Assembly: GCF_012516395.1 (NCBI RefSeq)
Contig: NZ_CP051206.1
Span: forward strand, 4,345,334-4,409,333
Reading direction: 5' to 3'
Source of the DNA: Dolichospermum flos-aquae CCAP 1403/13F
Lineage (GTDB): Bacteria > Cyanobacteriota > Cyanobacteriia > Cyanobacteriales > Nostocaceae
DNA: 64,000 bases
Positions 12,018-28,461 of this stretch are shown one piece after another. The number at the start of each line of letters is the position of its first letter. The first letter of the stretch is position 1. Both the position numbers and the translations under genes were made by a program. The notes under the pieces were generated by a model that was given only the letters and a program-made list of their open reading frames with translations, had not been told where the DNA came from and did no database searches.

Positions 12018-12179
12018 ATGGCTAATGAAAAATCACCAGACATTCAAAATACTAACAATGCCGATAACAAAGAACATAAAATTGAATGTTCTTCCTGTCA
12101 ATGTAAAGGGAGAATCCAACCTTATGGTTCACGCAGATTATCCAAATGTCAAAAATGCCAAGGAACAGGTTTTTGTTAA
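12018..12179 (+). CDS. Small zinc-knuckle protein (53 aa)
   Basis: A short gene that a length cut-off would miss. ATG at 12018 opens 53 codons. The first 25 residues are polar (Asn, Lys, Asp). The rest carries two Cys pairs resembling half of a DnaJ zinc domain: CSSCQCKGR near residue 26 and CQKCQGTGFC at the end. The CxxCxGxG pattern is typical of zinc knuckles in small cyanobacterial proteins of unknown role. It is followed 32 bp later by a hairpin. Function unknown; metal binding is likely. Confidence 0.65.
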   Translation: MANEKSPDIQNTNNADNKEHKIECSSCQCKGRIQPYGSRRLSKCQKCQGTGFC

Positions 12180-15103: not shown

Positions 15104-15252
15104 AAGGGACTTCCGGGAAATAAATTATCCCAATAAATAAATAAATAAATGAATAAACGAACCACAGAGGCACAGAGAACACAGAGAGAGAAGAAATAGA
15201 GAGGGTTTTTGCGTTAGTTTTGGGACATTTTTTTATTTGGAAGTCCCTAATG
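15104..15252. repeat. Composite repeat with GGGACTTCC inverted ends
   Basis: The gap between the GHL10 and SagB genes holds inverted ends AGGGACTTCC (15104 region) and GGAAGTCCCT (15239 region). Inside are an ATAA tandem run (about 15132-15154) and a CACAGAGG-type repeat copy (15155-15190). The GGAAGTCCCTTAG word recurs near 52051. Another degenerate CTCTGAG repeat follows at 15278-15310. Confidence 0.6.
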
Positions 15253-15337: not shown

Positions 15338-16066
15338 TTATCCCTTCCTCCCAACAGCAACACAATAAAGAGCAGCATGACGTTCTCCATCAATACCCAA
15401 CATAGCGTTTAAACTCATATCATCAAATCCACCAATACAGAGACTATCCAGTCCCAATTGCCCAGCCATTAAGCAGATATTTTCGGCTTGATGACCAGCT
15501 TCTAAAAGAGCAAAGCGGTAGCCCCGCGCCCCATACTTGCCCATTGAGCGCATAAAAACCGATGTGAACACAAACAGAGCATTGGCATTGAGAATGTAAT
15601 CCTGCTGCAATAATGGTTCGACAAAATCCGTTGGGACGGCATCATTTACCCAATGTAACCCGTGTCCGCGAGGTTCATAGTGATATAGTCCGCTAACCAA
15701 ACCTGCTACCGCTTGTGTGGATACGAACACCTCCAGAGGATAAAGTCCCCCCGCAGAAGGAGAGTTACGAGCCTCATAGCATTGACCATCCACTTCCCGC
15801 AGTCCGTTGAGTCCACATCCTGAGTCGAGCAGTTGAGCTAAGGCGACCAGTGGCATTACCTGACGCTCAAATGATCGGACAGAAGTACGTCGCGCTAAAA
15901 GCTCAGACAGCGGGTTATCACGTGGTGCTTTTGGCAATTCCAGAAAAGGAGCTTCTGGCAGATATCGCAGTTCAGTAGCCGGAACCCGCTTAACATAACT
16001 TTTAGGGACTGGAGAGTTTAAATGATAGAGAAGAGCTAACTCCAGAGGTTCATTGGCTGTGTGCAT
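15338..16066 (-). CDS. SagB-type azoline oxidase (FMN nitroreductase fold)
   Basis: 242-aa flavoenzyme of the SagB/ThcOx family, which oxidises thiazolines and oxazolines on RiPP precursors to aromatic azoles. Family stretches include LSELLARRTSVRSF (FMN phosphate binding, about residue 53), the NSPSAGGLYPLEVFV block (about 101), YGARGYRFALLEAGHQAENI (about 177), and the GLDSLCIGGFDD segment near 203. It is the last gene of the TOMM operon, 59 bp after the YcaO gene. The length is short for SagB proteins with N-terminal docking regions but complete for the catalytic domain. Confidence 0.88.
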   Translation of the reverse strand: MHTANEPLELALLYHLNSPVPKSYVKRVPATELRYLPEAPFLELPKAPRDNPLSELLARRTSVRSFERQVMPLVALAQLLDSGCGLNGLREVDGQCYEARNSPSAGGLYPLEVFVSTQAVAGLVSGLYHYEPRGHGLHWVNDAVPTDFVEPLLQQDYILNANALFVFTSVFMRSMGKYGARGYRFALLEAGHQAENICLMAGQLGLDSLCIGGFDDMSLNAMLGIDGERHAALYCVAVGRKG

Positions 16067-16125
16067 TGTCCTAATTTCCTCGTTTGTTTAATCAACAACC
16101 CGCTAACGGCTCGCTGACGGCTGTT

Positions 16126-17436
16126 TTAAGCCATAGGATGTGGGCAGGGATTTAAGTCATTTTTAGTCCGTCGGCCACCATAACCCAACCTTTCTGGGAC
16201 CTCGAATAACCGCCGAGTCCCCAGTGGTTCTTGTCCATAACCAAAATAGATAGGGACTATTTCACTGGCTAAAGTCCGCACCACTCGAAAACCAAGAGAG
16301 GCGATATCAGGGGCAGTAATTTCCACTACATAAGGTTCAACACCTACTGAATTTAACTTGGCAACTACTGATTGCAAATTCTCTGCTTCAGACTCAGATT
16401 CGTAAGTTGGTAAATATTCAACTTGGCAAGATTGGTCATGGTGAAATAGAAAATCCAACTCACCTAGCCGAGCCGTCGTGTAAAAAAAAGCGTTGTGATC
16501 ATCTAAATTCTGAATATCACTATATTGATGGAGATTAGCCCCAGCGCCAGTTTTCATCCGTTCTATGTCACCAAAGCGAGCTTGACAAACTTCAAAAACT
16601 GCCTTGTGGAAAGCCGTTGGTGCATCAAGATGACATCCCATACCAGTGGACACAGCGGGACCTTTGCCCGAACGGTCAATTAACATGGCCATGAAAACCG
16701 GGACTTGAATATCAGTAGTTAACTCGAAGACAACTAACTCAATGCCAAAGCGGGCATAGTGACGGGCAATTTCCGTCTCAATTCCTGGCAGGTGGTCGAA
16801 ATAGATGCGTGGGGCAGGGAGGCGATTTAACCAGGTAATAATGAAAGCATCACGCTCAATTAATTCGCACAAACCCCGGTAGGCAGCAAACTCCCAAGAT
16901 GGTCCACTAGCCATACCGTTAGAACTAACAGGTAAAATATAATCTCCTGGTTGGTCGCCACCCCAGTCTAAATAAACCAAAAAGGCTGGAACTAAAACCT
17001 GTTGCTTACTGGTTAAGGAAAGGGCATTCATCCACGAAGTCTGCGTTGTGGAATTAAAGGCCGGGAAAGGGAAAGTTGGGTGAGAGTATTGTTGGTTAGA
17101 AAAAGGAGAAAAAACGGTCGAAGGGACGGCACGATTACCTAATTCTTCGTAGCTACTAACAATTATTTGCCGATAATCAACAATACCACCGCAGTATCTT
17201 TCTATAGCTTCGCCCACAGCCCCAAAAATGGCTTGTTCATCCGTCATGCCCCTACCGACACCGTAGCGTAAATCATCAGGCTGTTTACGAAGCTGAAAAT
17301 TGGCTAATTCGGCTTGCCACAAAACGGGAAAATCGAACTCTGTATAAGGCTTGGTGAATCTATCTAAGGAGCGGATAACGCCAGTATGGGGGCTGACTAG
17401 ATCTTGCCAACGGGGACGTGCAATCGCTGTATTCAC
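16126..17436 (-). CDS. YcaO cyclodehydratase of the TOMM cluster
   Basis: 436-aa YcaO protein that uses ATP to activate peptide amides so that Cys (or Ser/Thr) side chains cyclise to azolines. Visible YcaO features are RYGVGRGMTDEQAIFGAVGE near residue 58, then AIERY, GMASGPSWEFAAYRGLCELI near 174, the catalytic-core ERDAF, and PAVSTGMGCHLDAPTAFHKA. The C-terminus LNPCPHPMA resembles the Pro-rich end of azoline-forming YcaO enzymes. I choose GTG at 17436, preceded by GGAGAG 8 nt upstream; the longer frame to 17535 runs into a dispersed repeat. It lies 11 bp after the E1-like gene. Confidence 0.9.
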   Translation of the reverse strand: MNTAIARPRWQDLVSPHTGVIRSLDRFTKPYTEFDFPVLWQAELANFQLRKQPDDLRYGVGRGMTDEQAIFGAVGEAIERYCGGIVDYRQIIVSSYEELGNRAVPSTVFSPFSNQQYSHPTFPFPAFNSTTQTSWMNALSLTSKQQVLVPAFLVYLDWGGDQPGDYILPVSSNGMASGPSWEFAAYRGLCELIERDAFIITWLNRLPAPRIYFDHLPGIETEIARHYARFGIELVVFELTTDIQVPVFMAMLIDRSGKGPAVSTGMGCHLDAPTAFHKAVFEVCQARFGDIERMKTGAGANLHQYSDIQNLDDHNAFFYTTARLGELDFLFHHDQSCQVEYLPTYESESEAENLQSVVAKLNSVGVEPYVVEITAPDIASLGFRVVRTLASEIVPIYFGYGQEPLGTRRLFEVPERLGYGGRRTKNDLNPCPHPMA

Positions 17437-17439
17437 TGT

Positions 17440-17525
17440 GTTCTCTCCTATCTTTTTCCGTTCCCTGTTCCCTCTTCCCTGCGATGCACTGAGCTTGTCG
17501 AAGTGTTCCCTTTCTGTGTTGAACA
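17440..17525. repeat. Dispersed repeat at the E1-like/YcaO gene junction
   Basis: A segment with the words CACTTCGACAAGCTCAGTG (on the minus strand) and runs of GGGAACAGGGAA/GGAAGAGGGAA. It is not conserved coding DNA. It supplies the last 20 or so residues of the E1-like protein and falsely extends the YcaO frame upstream. Confidence 0.6.
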
Positions 17526-18626
17526 ATGGGGACAACCTGGTTTTTTGAGGACAACGTTATGAGTAAGTTTTGTGCCAAGTAAGTCTATATGTAGTAGTTT
17601 TCCGTCAGTAGCGATCGCCAAACCGAGCATCATTTTCACAGCCTCAAGAGCTAAATAGCTACCCACCAACATCTGACCTATCGGTAAATTTTCCCGTAGC
17701 CGTGGTTGAGAACGCCGTTCTCGGTTGAGCAACTGTTCAACCGCCAATTCTGCCTCTGGAAACTTGGAACAAGCCATAGACCGCATCCGATAGCATAGAT
17801 AACAGGGTTTGTCCTGGGAAAAAACCAACGGACCGACAGTTCCCTCCACCCCAGCCGCTCCACCCGGTAGCAATGGGCGCTGCATCTTCAAGCATAGTCT
17901 GTTCAGACGATAGGCTAGATTCACAGATACGGCATCAGTAGCGACAATTACCAGGTCAACGTCCTCCAGCAAAGAATTGATGGTTGCGTCGTCATTTAAA
18001 CCATCTGTGACAATCTCAGCCTCAGTGATTCCGCCAATGGACTCAATCTGTCGCGCTGCTTCCACACTCCGAAAAGTGCCAATTTTATTCAATCCCGAAC
18101 CTGACATCATCAGGGAATCCGCCGGCAGGATACAGGCATCATCACACAAACGGACAAAACCAATCCCAGCAGTAGCTAGGTTAATTGCTGCTATCAGTCC
18201 CGAACCTCCCAGTCCAAAAACAGCAATTCTCGCATTGGCTAAGTTTTTTCGAGCATCTTTTTGGTCAAAGCCTAATTCATGATAAAGGCTGATTTGAGGA
18301 AGTAAATAAGCACGACTATCTAAATCATTTGTATTTTCTAGAGACTCTTCTACTAAGCGATTGTCCATCAAAAACTCTAAACATTGATTTAGGGAAGAAT
18401 CTGTCAATTGTTCGCCAATTGCATTGCGGATTTCTCCTATGGTGCGAGAGCCATCTAGTAAAGGTAAAACAATATTTTCCACATTATGCAGAGCTTGACC
18501 ATGGACTCTCAGGGTTCGTCGTGTTGTATTAAATATCATACTTTCTTCGCCACTGCAATCTGCCGGCATCACGTTAATAACAACGTGTTCTAGTAGTCGG
18601 AGCCGCTGACCATCATTTAATTTCAT
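17448..18626 (-). CDS. E1-like TOMM cyclodehydratase partner (ThiF family, leader-peptide binding)
   Basis: About 392 aa from the ATG at 18626. Residues 1-100 form a winged-helix RRE-like region (LLDGSRTIGEIRNAIGEQL, LEFLMDNRLVEE) that should bind the precursor leader. From about 130 a ThiF/E1 Rossmann domain follows, with GLGGSG at 138-143 and DLVIVATDAV near 224. Two Cys pairs, C275xxC278 and C365xxC368, form the structural zinc site. This family presents the precursor to YcaO. It is the second gene of the operon. The end (about residues 369-392, Ser/Thr/Arg/Gly-rich) comes from a dispersed repeat. TTG at 18644 is an alternative start. Confidence 0.88.
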   Translation of the reverse strand: MKLNDGQRLRLLEHVVINVMPADCSGEESMIFNTTRRTLRVHGQALHNVENIVLPLLDGSRTIGEIRNAIGEQLTDSSLNQCLEFLMDNRLVEESLENTNDLDSRAYLLPQISLYHELGFDQKDARKNLANARIAVFGLGGSGLIAAINLATAGIGFVRLCDDACILPADSLMMSGSGLNKIGTFRSVEAARQIESIGGITEAEIVTDGLNDDATINSLLEDVDLVIVATDAVSVNLAYRLNRLCLKMQRPLLPGGAAGVEGTVGPLVFSQDKPCYLCYRMRSMACSKFPEAELAVEQLLNRERRSQPRLRENLPIGQMLVGSYLALEAVKMMLGLAIATDGKLLHIDLLGTKLTHNVVLKKPGCPHCSTQKGNTSTSSVHRREEGTGNGKR

Positions 18627-18681
18627 AGACTTTATTATTGCCAAGGTTTAATCCTGCTATAAATAGCGATCAAAAAAATTA

Positions 18682-18729
18682 AAAACCCTGTTTCTGACAA
18701 CCGAAAATATTGAATAAAAACAGGGTTTC
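18682..18729 (-). terminator. Hairpin between precursor and modification genes
   Basis: Arms AAACCCTGTTT and AAACAGGGTTT around a loop of about 25 nt, between the precursor stop and the E1-like start. As a partial terminator it could give more precursor than enzyme mRNA, as is common in RiPP operons. The activity is inferred. Confidence 0.5.
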
Positions 18730-18819
18730 TGTTGATTTTTTTGGACGAATTTGATGATTTTAACCTCAAGAAACTCGGTTGATCAAATTACTAAATCCCT
18801 ATTCTGTCTTCAGGTTTAG

Positions 18820-19191
18820 TTAGTATCCAAATCCAAGCTCATCAATATCTCCCATCAAATTTGATGCTGTCCCATGGTCGGCAAATCTACAACCACCACA
18901 GCCACCGCAAGGTCTACAACCACCACAGCCTCGACAGCCGCAGCCACCACAGCCTCGACAGCCTCGACAGCCTCGACAGCCACCGCAACCGCCGCAGCCA
19001 CCACCACCACAGCCACCGCAATTAGCAAACCATCTTTGAGTGATTTCAGAGTCGAATTCTCCCGACATTGCTAATTTTTCTAAAGCTGCTATTTCCTCCT
19101 CAGACAACAGAAGTCTTTCTAGTTTGTCTGCTTGATCTACCAAACGCATTTCTACATATATTGGTTGGTCGAGTGTTTTTTCTGCAAGCAT
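18820..19191 (-). CDS. Cys-Gly-rich TOMM (RiPP) precursor peptide
   Basis: 123-aa precursor from ATG at 19191, which has AAAGGAG 9 nt upstream. Residues 1-57 are an acidic helical leader ([19 protein letters not shown]). The core, residues 58-101, holds 15 Cys almost every third residue, separated by GG, RG, G or RP ([13 protein letters not shown] type). A tail of 22 residues without Cys follows, ending DIDELGFGY. This layout resembles heterocycloanthracin-type precursors, whose Cys become thiazoles. The three enzymes downstream on the same strand match that chemistry. The leader is neither Nif11-like nor nitrile-hydratase-like to my eye. The product and activity are unknown. Function as a substrate is inferred from core pattern and context. 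Confidence 0.85.
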
Positions 19192-19305
19192 TGTCACCTA
19201 CTCCTTTCAACTTAAATTTAATAACCTGGTTGCAAATCTCTATTTGAGTTGATAAAAAGCTGGAATGATGTTTTTAAATCAACCAGTTTTCACAAATTCT
19301 TCAAA

Positions 19306-19335
19306 ATTACACTAGTCCACAACGGTGTAAGTCAA
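19306..19335 (-). promoter_or_regulatory. Candidate promoter and operator of the TOMM operon
   Basis: On the minus strand TTGACT (19335-19330) and TGTAAT (19311-19306) are 18 bp apart. They lie about 115 bp before the precursor start. The inverted repeat TTACAC/GTGTAA (19307-19312 and 19325-19330) overlaps both boxes and could be an operator. Confidence 0.4.
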
Positions 19336-19424: not shown

Positions 19425-20186
19425 CACAAAAGAGCAAAACCACTTTCTGATTAGTGTGGGGAACTATCAGATGGGATTTATATTCTGTGAAACCTTGTCT
19501 TTTATGAAAATTGCTCTTTTCAGGGTCGCCAATTATGTCTTTGTTTGCTTATCCGATTCTTACAAGAATATCTTTTTCTAGATAATTTTCTTCTTTCTTA
19601 AGTAGTATTATTTTATCTCTTGATAGAGGAGGAATCAATTTATGAAATTGTGCTAATGGTGAATGAAAATTCTTGTAACAGAGAATAATTTTATAGTTAA
19701 AGCGAATTTAAAATAATGCTTATGACCGATTGAAAAGCGTAGCTCTATTTCTCTATAATTACTCCTTTAGTAAGGTTATCAGACTTGATTACTTTTCAGG
19801 ATTTATCTAAAAATAGCAAATCAAATATCTGATCATCCTTTAATGATCAAGGTTATATTGGTTCTAGGCTGTTTTGATATCCGTGAAAATTCTGAACAAC
19901 AGACATTTGAAAATTTTTGAAATATTCATCCCTAAGAAGTGGAGAACAAAATTTTTCAAAAGTAGAATATTAAAGTAATAGATAGCAGAATCCGAAAAAA
20001 TTCCTGATCAACTTTGCAGCGACTGATTGCTGGTTAAGTTGGAAAAGGATAAAATTTGATCACTGCATATTTTATTCTTGAAAAATAAACTCTCCCAAGT
20101 GATAAGTCTAGTTATTACTCAGAAAATATCAAACTTTTGGAAATCAGAGAATTATCTAACCCTTTATAAAAATTCAGGTTTAATTA
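19425..20186. other. 760-bp gap between TOMM operon and exporter genes
   Basis: AT-rich DNA without a supported gene. A strong ribosome-binding stretch (GAGGAGGAAT at 19626-19635) precedes an ATG at 19643, but that frame stops after four codons. A 25-codon frame begins with ATG near 19504. Neither resembles a known protein. Confidence 0.5.
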
Positions 20187-21998: not shown

Positions 21999-22050
21999 TA
22001 CAAAAAAACTTAATTCTAGGACTTACGCAGAAATCATCTTCCACTCTCAT

Positions 22051-22083
22051 TTCTCTGTGTCCTCTGCGCCTCTGTGGTTCGTT
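22051..22083. repeat. CTGCGCCTCTGTGG-type dispersed repeat
   Basis: Inverse-orientation copy of the CGCAGAGG repeat family. It lies between the ABC gene and the HlyD gene and falsely lengthens the HlyD reading frame at its start. Confidence 0.8.
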
Positions 22084-22095
22084 ATTCCATCAGTC

Positions 22096-23418
22096 ATGAA
22101 CATCAAAAATCCGATTCCTTGGCTCATTGGGCTGACTGCATTTGGTTTATCTGGAATGGGTATTGCTTACTTCAGCCATTGGTATCAACCCAGCAAAAAT
22201 GATATTACAGATTTAACAGTCCCTGTCACTACCAGCAACTTAAACATTAAAATCAAAACCAATGGAGTTGTCCAACCAGTTCGCAAAATTAATATTAGCC
22301 CAAGAGAAGCCGGTCGAATTGCCAAACTCTATGTAGATGAAGGTAGTTCTGTCCAAAAAGGACAATTAATCGCAGAAATGGAGCGTCAAGCCTTTCAAGC
22401 CCAGGTGAATCAGTATCGAGCACTGTTATGGAAGGCAAAAGCCGAATTACAAGAAAAGCGTAAGGGTTACAGACCGGAAGAAATTGCCATAGCTCAAGCT
22501 GATGTGCGTAAGTACACGGCGCAAGTGAGGGAAGCTCAATCTCGCTTGGCATTAGCCTCTCAACGAGTCAAGCGCAGGCAATATCCTACATCTCAAGGAG
22601 CAGTATCCCGTGATGATTTAGATGCCGTCTTGAACGAGGAAAAAAGCGCTAGGGATAACTTACAACAAGCTAAATTTAGTCTGATATCTGCCCAACAACA
22701 AGTGAAAAAACTACTTTCCGGTTATCAAACTGAGGAAATTACCAAAGCTGGTGCTGAAGTAGCTCAAGCAACTGCCCAATTACAATTTTACGAAAATCAG
22801 TTAGAAAATACTTTCATTCGCGCCCCTTTTGCTGGCTTAATTACCCGACGTTTTGCCCAAGCGGGGGACTTCGTAACTCCAAATACTTCTGTTTCTACCA
22901 ATGAAGGGGGAACTAGTGCCTCCATTGCTGAATTATCCAGTGGTTTGGAAATAGAAGCTAAAGTTCCCGAAGTGAATATGGCGCAAATTCAGAAAAATCA
23001 GCCTGTAGAAATTCGCCTTGATGCTTTTCCTGATCAAGTTTTTCAAGGGAAAGTCCGTTTGATTGCTCCTAGAGGAGTTAAGGAAGAAAATGTCACTTTT
23101 ATGCGAGTCAAGATTGCTTTGGCAACGGGTCAAGATAAACTCAAGGTAGGGCTAAATGTGAAGTTAACTTTTTTGGTGAATGACATTCGCAATGCCTTGG
23201 TTATTCCTTCGGCTGCGGTGGTTTCTGGGAAGGGAGGGCAGGTGGGTGTACTGTTACCAGATAAAGATAATCAAGCAAAATTTCATCCGATACAGGTAGG
23301 AATTACTTCTGGTGATAAAACCCAAATTTTAGGCGGACTTTCCGAAGGTGAACGGGTTTTTATTCAACCACCAGCTAATCAATTAATTGATGGTATTGAT
23401 CGTGTTACTGGATCTTAG
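22096..23418 (+). CDS. HlyD-family membrane fusion protein (efflux RND/ABC adaptor)
   Basis: 440-aa periplasmic adaptor from ATG at 22096 (MNIKNPIPWLIGL). One N-terminal membrane segment is followed by a biotinyl-lipoyl-like half (GRIAKLYVDEGSSVQKGQLI, near residue 75), an alpha-helical coiled-coil hairpin (about 110-250), and the matching half (NTFIRAPFAGLITRRFAQAG). Beta-barrel and membrane-proximal domains follow. It links an inner-membrane pump to the outer membrane. The longer frame from GTG at 22057 is repeat-derived. It is followed by a MacB-type permease, the usual partner, so the pair likely works together. Confidence 0.9.
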   Translation: MNIKNPIPWLIGLTAFGLSGMGIAYFSHWYQPSKNDITDLTVPVTTSNLNIKIKTNGVVQPVRKINISPREAGRIAKLYVDEGSSVQKGQLIAEMERQAFQAQVNQYRALLWKAKAELQEKRKGYRPEEIAIAQADVRKYTAQVREAQSRLALASQRVKRRQYPTSQGAVSRDDLDAVLNEEKSARDNLQQAKFSLISAQQQVKKLLSGYQTEEITKAGAEVAQATAQLQFYENQLENTFIRAPFAGLITRRFAQAGDFVTPNTSVSTNEGGTSASIAELSSGLEIEAKVPEVNMAQIQKNQPVEIRLDAFPDQVFQGKVRLIAPRGVKEENVTFMRVKIALATGQDKLKVGLNVKLTFLVNDIRNALVIPSAAVVSGKGGQVGVLLPDKDNQAKFHPIQVGITSGDKTQILGGLSEGERVFIQPPANQLIDGIDRVTGS

Positions 23419-23454
23419 CCTACTCTCTTTTTACTGGAAGAATATTGATTAAAT

Positions 23455-23515
23455 GAACCACGAAGGAGCGAAGAACACGAAGAAAGAAGGAAGAAGAAAG
23501 AAGGAAGGAAGAAAT
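23455..23515. repeat. GAACCACGAAGG/GAAGGAAGAA purine-rich repeat
   Basis: Purine-rich dispersed repeat between the HlyD and MacB-type genes. A close relative is at 63077-63130, after ndhF. Confidence 0.7.
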
Positions 23516-23549
23516 TAAGTAATTTTATGCTGGGAAGGGATTATGAATT

Positions 23550-24755
23550 ATGAATTTGTTAGAAAGTGTGAACATGGCTTTTGCTACTCTCGCTGCTAAT
23601 AAACTTCGTAGCGGACTAACTATGTTGGGAATAATTATTGGCAATGCTTCAGTTATTAGTATGATTGGGATTGGGCAGGGCGCACAGAATCTTGTGTTGG
23701 GTAAACTTGAGGCGTTTGGAGCAAATCAACTGACGGTATATAGCACTTTTGAAGATGATGAAGGCATGAAATTTCCTGATGCTCAATTGGTGTTATCAGA
23801 TGCAGAAGCAATTAAAGCTCAAGTTCCTAGTGTGAGCAAAGTTGCGCCTATAGATGAGCAAAAAATGTCAATTAGTTTTAATAACAAGTTAACATCAACA
23901 ACTGTTAAAGGCACTACCTTTGATTTGCTTGCTGTGCAGAATCTTACTCTTGTCACTGGCAGAATGTTTAACCAAATACAACAGCAAGAACAGGCTCAAG
24001 TTACTGTTTTGGGTGCAGAAACTAGTCGGAAACTTTTCGGCGATGAAAATCCTGTAGGGCAAGAAGTTCTCATTAATAATATATCGTTTCAAGTGATTGG
24101 TTTATTGCAATCAAAGGGTGCATTTGGTGGGGAGAATTCTGATCAAACTGCTATTGTTCCCCTCACAACATTTGCTAATAGGTTAGTGGGACGCAGATCA
24201 ATATCTGATATTCCTCTCAGTTATATTTTAGTGACTGCCAAAAATAGAGATAGTATTCGCGCCGCAGGTTTTCAAATTACTAATATTCTGGCTCGACTAC
24301 ATGGGAAAAAAGATGTGGCTGTTTTTGCTAATAAGAAGTTTCAAGAATTGGTAGTTCAGGTAACTGGTGTTTTGTCATTATTATTAGCTTTAATTGCGGC
24401 TATTTCTTTGTTAGTGGGTGGCATTGGTATTATGAATATTATGTTAGTTTCTGTGACTGAACGTACTCAAGAAATTGGGTTGCGTAAGGCAGTTGGGGCA
24501 ACTCAGAATGATATTTTAGCGCAATTTTTAATTGAGGCAATTATTCTCTCTCTCTCTGGCTGTCTGCTGGGCATAATTGTAGGAGTTGGGGGAACTATGC
24601 CGTTAGCCTTCTTCACGCCTTTGACTCCTCAATTTCCTCTATATGCGATTGTTGTCGCCGTGGGAATATCCGGGAGTATAGGCTTGATTTTTGGTGTATT
24701 TCCAGCCCGACAAGCAGCAATGTTAGACCCAATTGTTGCCCTAAGAAGTGGGTGA
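23550..24755 (+). CDS. MacB-type ABC transporter permease
   Basis: 401-aa permease of the MacB/FtsX type. An N-terminal membrane helix (KLRSGLTMLGIIIGNASVIS), a large MacB periplasmic core domain (residues 50-265), then three C-terminal helices with the conserved ERTQEIGLRKAVGAT loop that couples to the ATPase (near 310). It follows the HlyD gene, giving a MacAB- or DevBC-like arrangement. The expected separate ATPase gene is missing next to it, so a distant or shared ATPase must power it. The upstream ABC half transporter already carries its own ATPase. Confidence 0.9.
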   Translation: MNLLESVNMAFATLAANKLRSGLTMLGIIIGNASVISMIGIGQGAQNLVLGKLEAFGANQLTVYSTFEDDEGMKFPDAQLVLSDAEAIKAQVPSVSKVAPIDEQKMSISFNNKLTSTTVKGTTFDLLAVQNLTLVTGRMFNQIQQQEQAQVTVLGAETSRKLFGDENPVGQEVLINNISFQVIGLLQSKGAFGGENSDQTAIVPLTTFANRLVGRRSISDIPLSYILVTAKNRDSIRAAGFQITNILARLHGKKDVAVFANKKFQELVVQVTGVLSLLLALIAAISLLVGGIGIMNIMLVSVTERTQEIGLRKAVGATQNDILAQFLIEAIILSLSGCLLGIIVGVGGTMPLAFFTPLTPQFPLYAIVVAVGISGSIGLIFGVFPARQAAMLDPIVALRSG

Positions 24756-24768
24756 TTATTGAGATTTT

Positions 24769-28461
<3,693 letters not shown>

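Follow-up and report, generated by a model that had tools for sequence, protein, structure and literature searches.

We analyzed a stretch of 64,000 nucleotides from the cyanobacterium Dolichospermum flos-aquae CCAP 1403/13F of the family Nostocaceae (NCBI RefSeq assembly GCF_012516395.1, contig NZ_CP051206.1, positions 4,345,334 to 4,409,333 of the forward strand), which is referred to below as the window; the contig is 5.15 Mb long and the genome 5.22 Mb. The minus strand of the window carries, one after the other, the genes of a Cys-rich precursor peptide, an E1-like protein, a YcaO protein and a SagB-type dehydrogenase, all of them intact open frames (Table 1). With its YcaO protein, E1-like partner, SagB dehydrogenase and adjacent Cys-rich precursor this set is, judged by its sequence, a cassette of the linear azol(in)e-containing peptide (LAP) or thiazole/oxazole-modified microcin (TOMM) kind, and very probably its product is an exported cationic polythiazole peptide. 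A first-pass annotation of the window had described the four minus-strand genes, which the open frames and NCBIfam matches confirm, and had called them a complete set. The three azole enzymes are indeed present, but the divergently transcribed ATP-binding cassette (ABC) exporter gene was overlooked, and among the conserved cassette genes we recognised none for a leader protease. Likewise, the interval of that annotation does contain the cassette genes, but 19192-19335 is merely upstream DNA and the functional unit extends at least to 21998, where the exporter gene ends.

The check proposed for the enzymes, a hidden Markov model search, placed all three above the curated NCBIfam cut-offs: the E1-like protein scored 54.4 bits with TIGR03882 (cut-off 36.9; residues 256-381), the YcaO protein 311.7 bits with TIGR03604 (cut-off 219.25) and the SagB protein 127.9 bits with TIGR03605 (cut-off 78.4). 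The YcaO protein is the sole PF02624 match of the host genome at E<=0.001, and it aligns with the cyanobactin enzymes MusD, LynD and TruD over residues 9-434, near full length. The alignment takes in an SNGxAxG...ExxERD stretch, which we take to be the ATP-site motif, and a proline-rich C-terminus, presumably the C-terminal motif of YcaO proteins. The SagB protein matches McbC (6gos) and CyaGox (5lq4). In each of the 29 loci that were translated (our locus numbers L021 and L032 were left out of this set) the YcaO (432-445 aa) and SagB (241-253 aa) frames are open, and 26 of these SagB proteins contain KYGxRxY. Pairwise distances of the E1-like protein, YcaO, SagB and the exporter over the same loci correlate with r 0.88-0.96 (406 non-independent pairs).

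Table 1. Features of the cassette and its surroundings in the window
Feature	Position	Strand	Basis and remarks
Precursor peptide gene, 123 aa	18820..19191	-	ATG with Shine-Dalgarno; alignment with 22 relatives; 32 precursors from 31 loci
Precursor leader, residues 1-57	19021..19191	-	Conserved across 23 aligned precursors
Precursor core, residues 58-101	18889..19020	-	15 Cys in 44 residues
Acidic Cys-free tail, residues 102-123	18823..18888	-	Terminates in FGY
E1-like (ThiF/MoeB family) scaffold, presumed leader-binding C protein	17448..18626	-	TIGR03882 and PF00899; 11 relatives aligned
YcaO cyclodehydratase, 436 aa from GTG	16126..17436	-	TIGR03604 and PF02624; C-terminus PCPHPMA
SagB/McbC-type flavin dehydrogenase, 242 aa	15338..16066	-	TIGR03605; KYGARGY motif
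Divergent ABC exporter, 603 aa	20187..21998	+	Pfam ABC_tran
Membrane-fusion (HlyD/RND-type) protein	22057..23418	+	TIGR01730 above cut-off; likely true start ATG 22096
MacB-like FtsX permease	23550..24755	+	PF12704 and PF02687; no ATPase domain match
Hairpin and T-run between precursor and E1-like gene	18682..18726	-	Possible partial terminator
Inverted repeat CACT-N8-AGTG upstream of the precursor	19441..19456	-	Possible operator, lead only

The ATG at 19191, which follows the Shine-Dalgarno sequence AAAGGAG at 19201-19207, is the most likely start of the precursor. Its 44-residue core is made of 15 Cys, 23 Gly, 5 Arg and 1 Pro, with Cys spacings of 3,5,3,3,3,3,3,3,2,3,3,3,3,3, and is followed by a separate 22-residue tail without Cys, exactly as first described. 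Of the 21,908 stop-free 44-residue stretches in the six frames of the window, those outside the core hold at most 7 Cys each. The precursor is not a chance reading frame, because 30 other genomes show the leader, the core pattern and the tail again, beside the same kinds of gene. For the family statistics we used 32 precursors from 31 loci, all different in sequence. Their extraction demanded FG before the last residue, and a precursor was still obtained in all 31 loci; in the 23 aligned precursors, which were found without demanding that end, F121 and G122 are invariant. The family ends in FGY (29 precursors), FGN (2) or FGH (1), and AGGAG lies at most 18 nt from the start in 30 of the 32. 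Leader and tail are conserved, while the Cys-X-X core differs in length and order among relatives. The cores hold 469 Cys (9 to 20 per precursor), spaced by 3 in 356 of 437 cases, by 2 in 51, by 4 in 29 and by 5 in a single case, that of the window precursor. Among the 854 spacer residues are 568 Gly, 170 Arg and 31 Pro; Ser and Thr together occur nine times in all 32 cores, and Asp and Glu are absent. The mean net charge is -5.1 for the leader, +5.6 for the core and -4.0 for the tail. Three genomes of one genus (L111, L112 and L114) keep the tail end but have another sequence in place of the leader's QRW end. At L038:8001-8878 a precursor with 20 Cys and one with 12 lie in tandem ahead of a single enzyme set, and the precursors of L113 and L033 have variant cores with CGGYCGGY repeats, a Cys spacing of 4 and tails ending in FGN.

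These sequences also bear on the possibility that the Cys core stays unmodified, as in a metallothionein-like Gly/Cys protein, and that the YcaO set acts elsewhere. The azole chemistry is unproven, and a long core with a conserved tail would suit such a protein. Against this, 29 of the 31 genomes keep the precursor together with all three enzymes, the other two having SagB on another contig in one case and a contig end in the other, and Gly, which is a usual residue before an azole-forming Cys, immediately precedes 362 of the 469 Cys. We regard an unmodified core as very improbable.

The first-pass annotation did not recognise the leader type. This holds as far as family models go: the window precursor has no NCBIfam match at E<=0.01 or even at E<=10, and no Pfam match at E<=0.01. 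It does not hold for the system as a whole, which is probably already in the literature as the anabaenasin TOMM group discussed below. The five NCBIfam families to which the 23 precursors give matches at E<=10 include no NHLP or Nif11 leader model. A likeness of the leader to the cyanobactin recognition sequence was considered and rejected; a search of the PDB sequences with the leader gave nothing at E<=10. A candidate for a second precursor in the same genome, the weak match G000:C1:4112571, was rejected as a tandem-repeat translation next to unrelated genes.

At least 31 distinct genomes, the window's among them and all from one family, have such a precursor beside such genes (the duplicates L037, L041, L042 and L043 were removed from the locus list, and L040 is the same as L119, whose precursor was found through reading frames and not by tblastn). 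Searches with the precursor leader found it in 16 of 120 genomes, a count that includes the genome of the window, and in at least 11 loci of named genomes. An order-wide profile search matched 46 of 388 genomes; 22 of them match from the leader on and all belong to the window's family, and the remaining 24 match from profile position 44 on only (E 1.7e-8 to 9.9e-4). These 24 were rejected as carriers: in the one place inspected in each genome none has a leader, and nearly all are translations of simple Cys-X-X repeats (L153 and L159 are other sequence). Related cyanobacterial genomes (L096-L103, L146-L161) contain tandem repeats whose translations are Cys-X-X peptides and which can mimic precursor cores in searches. 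Of 386 genomes of the phylum, 15 have a match to the E1-like family at E<=1e-25 (the weakest at 2.7e-186); these 15 belong to the window's family, and each of them also appears on the list of precursor genomes. In the first 23 loci the ABC exporter and the precursor are each found 23 times, E1-like and YcaO 22 times and SagB 21 times; these five families recur across genera, and the other recurring frames overlap them by median position. All five genes are present in each of eight further loci (L111-L118). Over the 31 genomes the exporter and the precursor are found in 31, E1-like and YcaO in 30 and SagB in 29. It had been asked whether the precursor has homologues near other YcaO genes: the two stand together in 30 of the 31 genomes; in the 31st locus the contig breaks off and no E1-like or YcaO gene is adjacent, the E1-like gene of that genome being on another contig, where YcaO and SagB were not sought.

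The exporter gene adjoins the precursor in all 31 loci, with a gap of 0.4-1.3 kb except in L115 (3.2 kb). Beyond it, in the window's genus, sits a pair of genes for a membrane-fusion protein (MFP) and a MacB-type permease, which in the window (22057-24755, plus strand) have no separate ABC ATPase gene next to them. The MFP gene is found beside the exporter at 88-96% identity in nine distinct relatives. Over the 23 loci an MFP-like family occurs in 13, in three of them at merely 26-29% identity, and a MacB-like permease in 10, both beside the exporter. The presence or absence of the E1-like, exporter and MacB genes was followed through the genus, while the MFP gene is known by its place next to the exporter. 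The E1-like protein (86-100% identity) is present in 7 of the 16 genomes of the genus, and the other nine give matches of 26% or less. At E<=1e-100, orthologues of the exporter (93-100%) and of the MacB-like permease (90-100%) are found in the same seven genomes and in none of the nine others. Paralogues occur as well: of the exporter, at 33-37%, in one cassette-free (G014) and one cassette-bearing (G012) genome, and of MacB, at 49-53%, in all 16. Such a coincidence would have a chance of 1 in 11,440 if the 16 genomes were independent, but they are related. In two genomes of another genus (L117, L118) the MFP/MacB pair (50/58% identity) is instead found on the far side of SagB; as a second MacB in the window has 50% identity, this pair may be a different paralogue.

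In another option the same chemistry serves metal handling or signalling, for example through a soft-metal ligand made of thiazoles or thiazolines together with leftover Cys. The regular C-X-X array with its many sulphur and nitrogen donors, the pump-type gene that accompanies the cassette within the genus and the absence of a recognised immunity gene would all be in line with such a product. However, the core is hypervariable in length and order while the leader and the enzymes are kept, a pattern expected more of conflict molecules, heterocycloanthracin for example, than of a fixed ligand, and across genera only the five cassette families recur in the 23 loci, with MFP- and MacB-like genes in some. 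We consider a metal-handling or signalling product rather unlikely.

Some regulatory signals can be suggested around the precursor gene. The hairpin behind it has a folding energy of -14.5 kcal/mol, compared with a mean of -3.5 and a lowest value of -9.7 in 20 shuffles. Hairpins of this ACCCTG/CAGGGT type follow 10 of the 32 precursors (the window's and nine others) and were not found after the other 22; in three of the ten (L019, L028, L119) a shuffled sequence folded better, and the window hairpin is absent from the output of the consensus scan. Such a hairpin could set the expression of the precursor above that of the enzymes. The CACT-N8-AGTG repeat lies at -177 to -284 in 13 of the 31 loci, a count made without a control and a lead only. 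A second inverted repeat, TAACTAT...ATAGTTA, is seen upstream of the precursor in 12 of the 31 loci (for example in L034 at about -167) and was not found in the window. A search of Rfam gave three sub-threshold matches only.

It is known for these families that the E1-like protein binds the leader, that YcaO makes azolines with ATP and that the SagB protein oxidises the azolines. The genes, their families, their intact frames, their inheritance together and the conserved leader and tail are seen in the sequences; ring formation and the order of the steps in the following scheme are inferred from these families. The conserved leader of the precursor would dock on the E1-like protein, which would offer the core to YcaO; YcaO, with ATP, would cyclise the Cys side chains onto the preceding carbonyl, mostly that of Gly, and the thiazolines so formed would be oxidised to thiazoles by the SagB-type flavoenzyme. 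The mature peptide would be a cationic chain with up to 15 thiazoles, spaced mainly by Gly-Gly or Arg-Gly. The acidic leader would be removed by a protease, and the divergent ABC transporter would export the peptide and probably shield the producer as well. By analogy with known systems we guess at an antibacterial weapon as the likeliest role, with a chance that is about even; the tail may or may not stay on the peptide.

Several observations weigh against this scheme. Leader binding by the E1-like protein is its weakest mechanistic step and is presumed here: the AlphaFold model of the protein is poor (mean predicted local distance difference test score, pLDDT, of 43), and its first 120 residues give sub-threshold winged-helix matches only, to PF21782 in all six proteins scanned (best E 0.00039) and to RiPP_bind_ApyI in two of the six (E 0.08-0.1). 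The pattern KYGxRxY is not matched in three of the 29 SagB proteins (L033, L113, L114), and in L032 (genome G050) SagB lies on another contig. No C39 or other peptidase domain is among the Pfam matches of the exporter at E<=0.01, no protease was seen among the ten window proteins scanned, and no sixth family is common to all 23 loci; since neither the cassette nor the exporter provides a protease, maturation is unexplained. No immunity gene was recognised. An alternative for the E1-like protein itself is an MccB-like adenylation of the C-terminus of the precursor. MoeB and MccB do align with it, but the LSNLQRQ of MoeB is replaced by a variable stretch, and we judge such a reaction unlikely. 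The C-terminus of the E1-like protein (...STSSVHRREEGTGNGKR; 17448-17510) has a repeat-derived look and lies outside the part that aligns with relatives. Compared with plasmids, the protein has remote relatives only, the best-ranked being 32.5% identical.

The patchy distribution of the cassette, 22 of the 388 genomes of the order and 7 of the 16 in the genus, is a further difficulty, as is the transposase reported between the C and D genes of Anabaena sp. 90 in the relevant passage of Cox, Doroghazi and Mitchell (Cox et al., 2015; PMC4603692); together they imply that some copies may be dead. In the extreme case the whole cluster would be a decaying selfish element or relic, spread by mobile elements and without a working product. 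In this respect the flanks are also of interest. None of 30 open reading frames (ORFs) from the window's flanks lies beside the cassette in six relatives of the genus, save one 48% fragment in L028, and the same search in three further loci gave no match. The compared flanks are short (in L025 0.25 kb beyond MacB, in L021 nothing on the enzyme side), and they suggest a move of the cassette between genomic sites. What speaks against decay is that all window genes are open, as are YcaO and SagB in all 29 translated loci, that each of the 31 loci has a full-length open precursor, and that the pooled dN/dS is 0.195 over 40 leader codons and 0.537 over the last 16 codons (199 non-independent pairs of QRW-type precursors with a leader identity of at least 80%). 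On these grounds we hold a relic without a product to be hardly probable. The dN/dS values show the tail to be less constrained than the leader, which is another point that does not favour our scheme.

Two 70-nt inverted repeats around the cassette (15149-15218 and 22021-22090) were considered as the ends of a mobile unit and rejected, as the element occurs five times in the window. A dispersed repeat of the CTCTGTGCCTCTGTGGTTC type, with five copies in the window, has one copy (26085-26103) inside the gene of magnesium chelatase subunit H (24769-28461); this gene stays open despite the repeat and has a low-complexity EPQRHREHREEEE stretch. Outside the cassette, a 53-aa plus-strand frame (12018-12179) with several CxxC pairs looks zinc-finger-like.

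Returning to the polythiazole peptide, several known systems can be compared with the cassette. In the passages on anabaenasins, Cox et al. (2015; PMC4603692) describe a TOMM group from 11 species with separate C and D proteins, a unique C protein and five Gly- and Cys-rich precursors, with Anabaena sp. 90 as one carrier. Judged by this published description, the cassette most likely belongs to the anabaenasin group: they share a carrier of the Anabaena type, discrete C and D proteins, a Gly- and Cys-rich precursor and, as far as that description goes, a group without a characterised product. A comparison by description found no differing feature. Our E1-like protein may be similarly unusual as a C protein: it scores 44.6 bits with TIGR03603, below the cut-off of 187.65, and the 15 phylum genomes that match its family at E<=1e-25 all belong to the window's family. 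The anabaenasin D protein is described as closest to those of the haloazolisin and mobilisin groups. The consulted passages of this account are silent on the divergent exporter, the conserved tail and the pump pair. In the literature searched, the name was met in Cox et al. (2015) alone, and no product or purpose of anabaenasin was found described; the passages on cyanobacterial bacteriocin clusters in PMC3140520, PMC3542288 and PMC7232259 do not describe the cassette. Relative to these passages, the distribution, the linkage of exporter and pump and a tail that is conserved throughout 31 genomes are new.

Heterocycloanthracin had already shown that a Cys-X-X array can end in a conserved C-terminal motif (Haft, 2009; PMC2674419). 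From the parts of the literature consulted, heterocycloanthracin and sonorensin share with our precursors a leader, a Cys-X-X array (CGG, RCG) of about 13 Cys, tripeptide indels and a short C-terminal motif, which is [FY]EY or WNWWII in heterocycloanthracin and FG[YNH] here. In that system a fused C-D enzyme works with an F protein and the precursor is, by the same sources, usually far from the operon, whereas here the E1-like and YcaO proteins are separate and the precursor is adjacent. Eight of the 23 precursors match TIGR03601 at E<=10, the window's not among them, with a best score of 22.6 bits against a cut-off of 35; the four matches inspected (10 precursors) cover core residues 55-99 only. 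We do not file the cassette as heterocycloanthracin, because the leader and the enzyme layout differ.

Phazolicin and klebsazolicin resemble the cassette in gene content, as the consulted account of phazolicin (PMC6783444) lists the same five kinds of gene in phzEACBD (precursor, C, B, D and exporter), a positively charged core and protection of the producer by PhzE. Their cores, in the passages seen, contain Ser, Thr and Cys and carry 8 azoles, in contrast to the long, almost Ser/Thr-free Cys repeat core with a conserved tail. Micrococcin TclI, TclJ and TclN likewise are a separate scaffold, cyclodehydratase and dehydrogenase that turn several Cys into thiazoles, according to the part of PMC10634744 consulted; the product there is a thiopeptide from a 14-residue core with six Cys, and here no further modification enzymes were seen. 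The best solved relatives of the YcaO protein are those of cyanobactins, MusD, LynD and TruD (PDB 7u58, 4v1t and 4bs9; E 2e-28 to 2.9e-23). Cyanobactin clusters, as outlined in Cox et al. (2015; PMC4603692), have a fused C-D enzyme and proteases of the PatA/PatG type, neither of which was seen here.

A wider, tentative hypothesis, which we ourselves think doubtful, is that the cassette represents a distinct class of LAPs, in which the acidic leader and the acidic FG[YNH] tail would both be recognised and would clamp and mask a strongly cationic core of 9-20 rings, and in which the precursor, the enzymes, the exporter and, in one genus, the MFP/MacB pump would move as one producing and self-protecting unit. 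If the product is made, it could be a cationic polyazole from bloom-type cyanobacteria with as many as 15 thiazoles (one relative could reach 20), more than the eight azoles of phazolicin. Since the core rearranges freely between a leader and a tail that are conserved, the family would offer a natural series for studying the way in which an iterative cyclodehydratase copes with many sites, and the contribution of the tail. In addition, the joint presence and absence of the exporter and the MacB orthologue with the cassette in one genus leads to a testable idea of how these bacteria may protect themselves from their own product.

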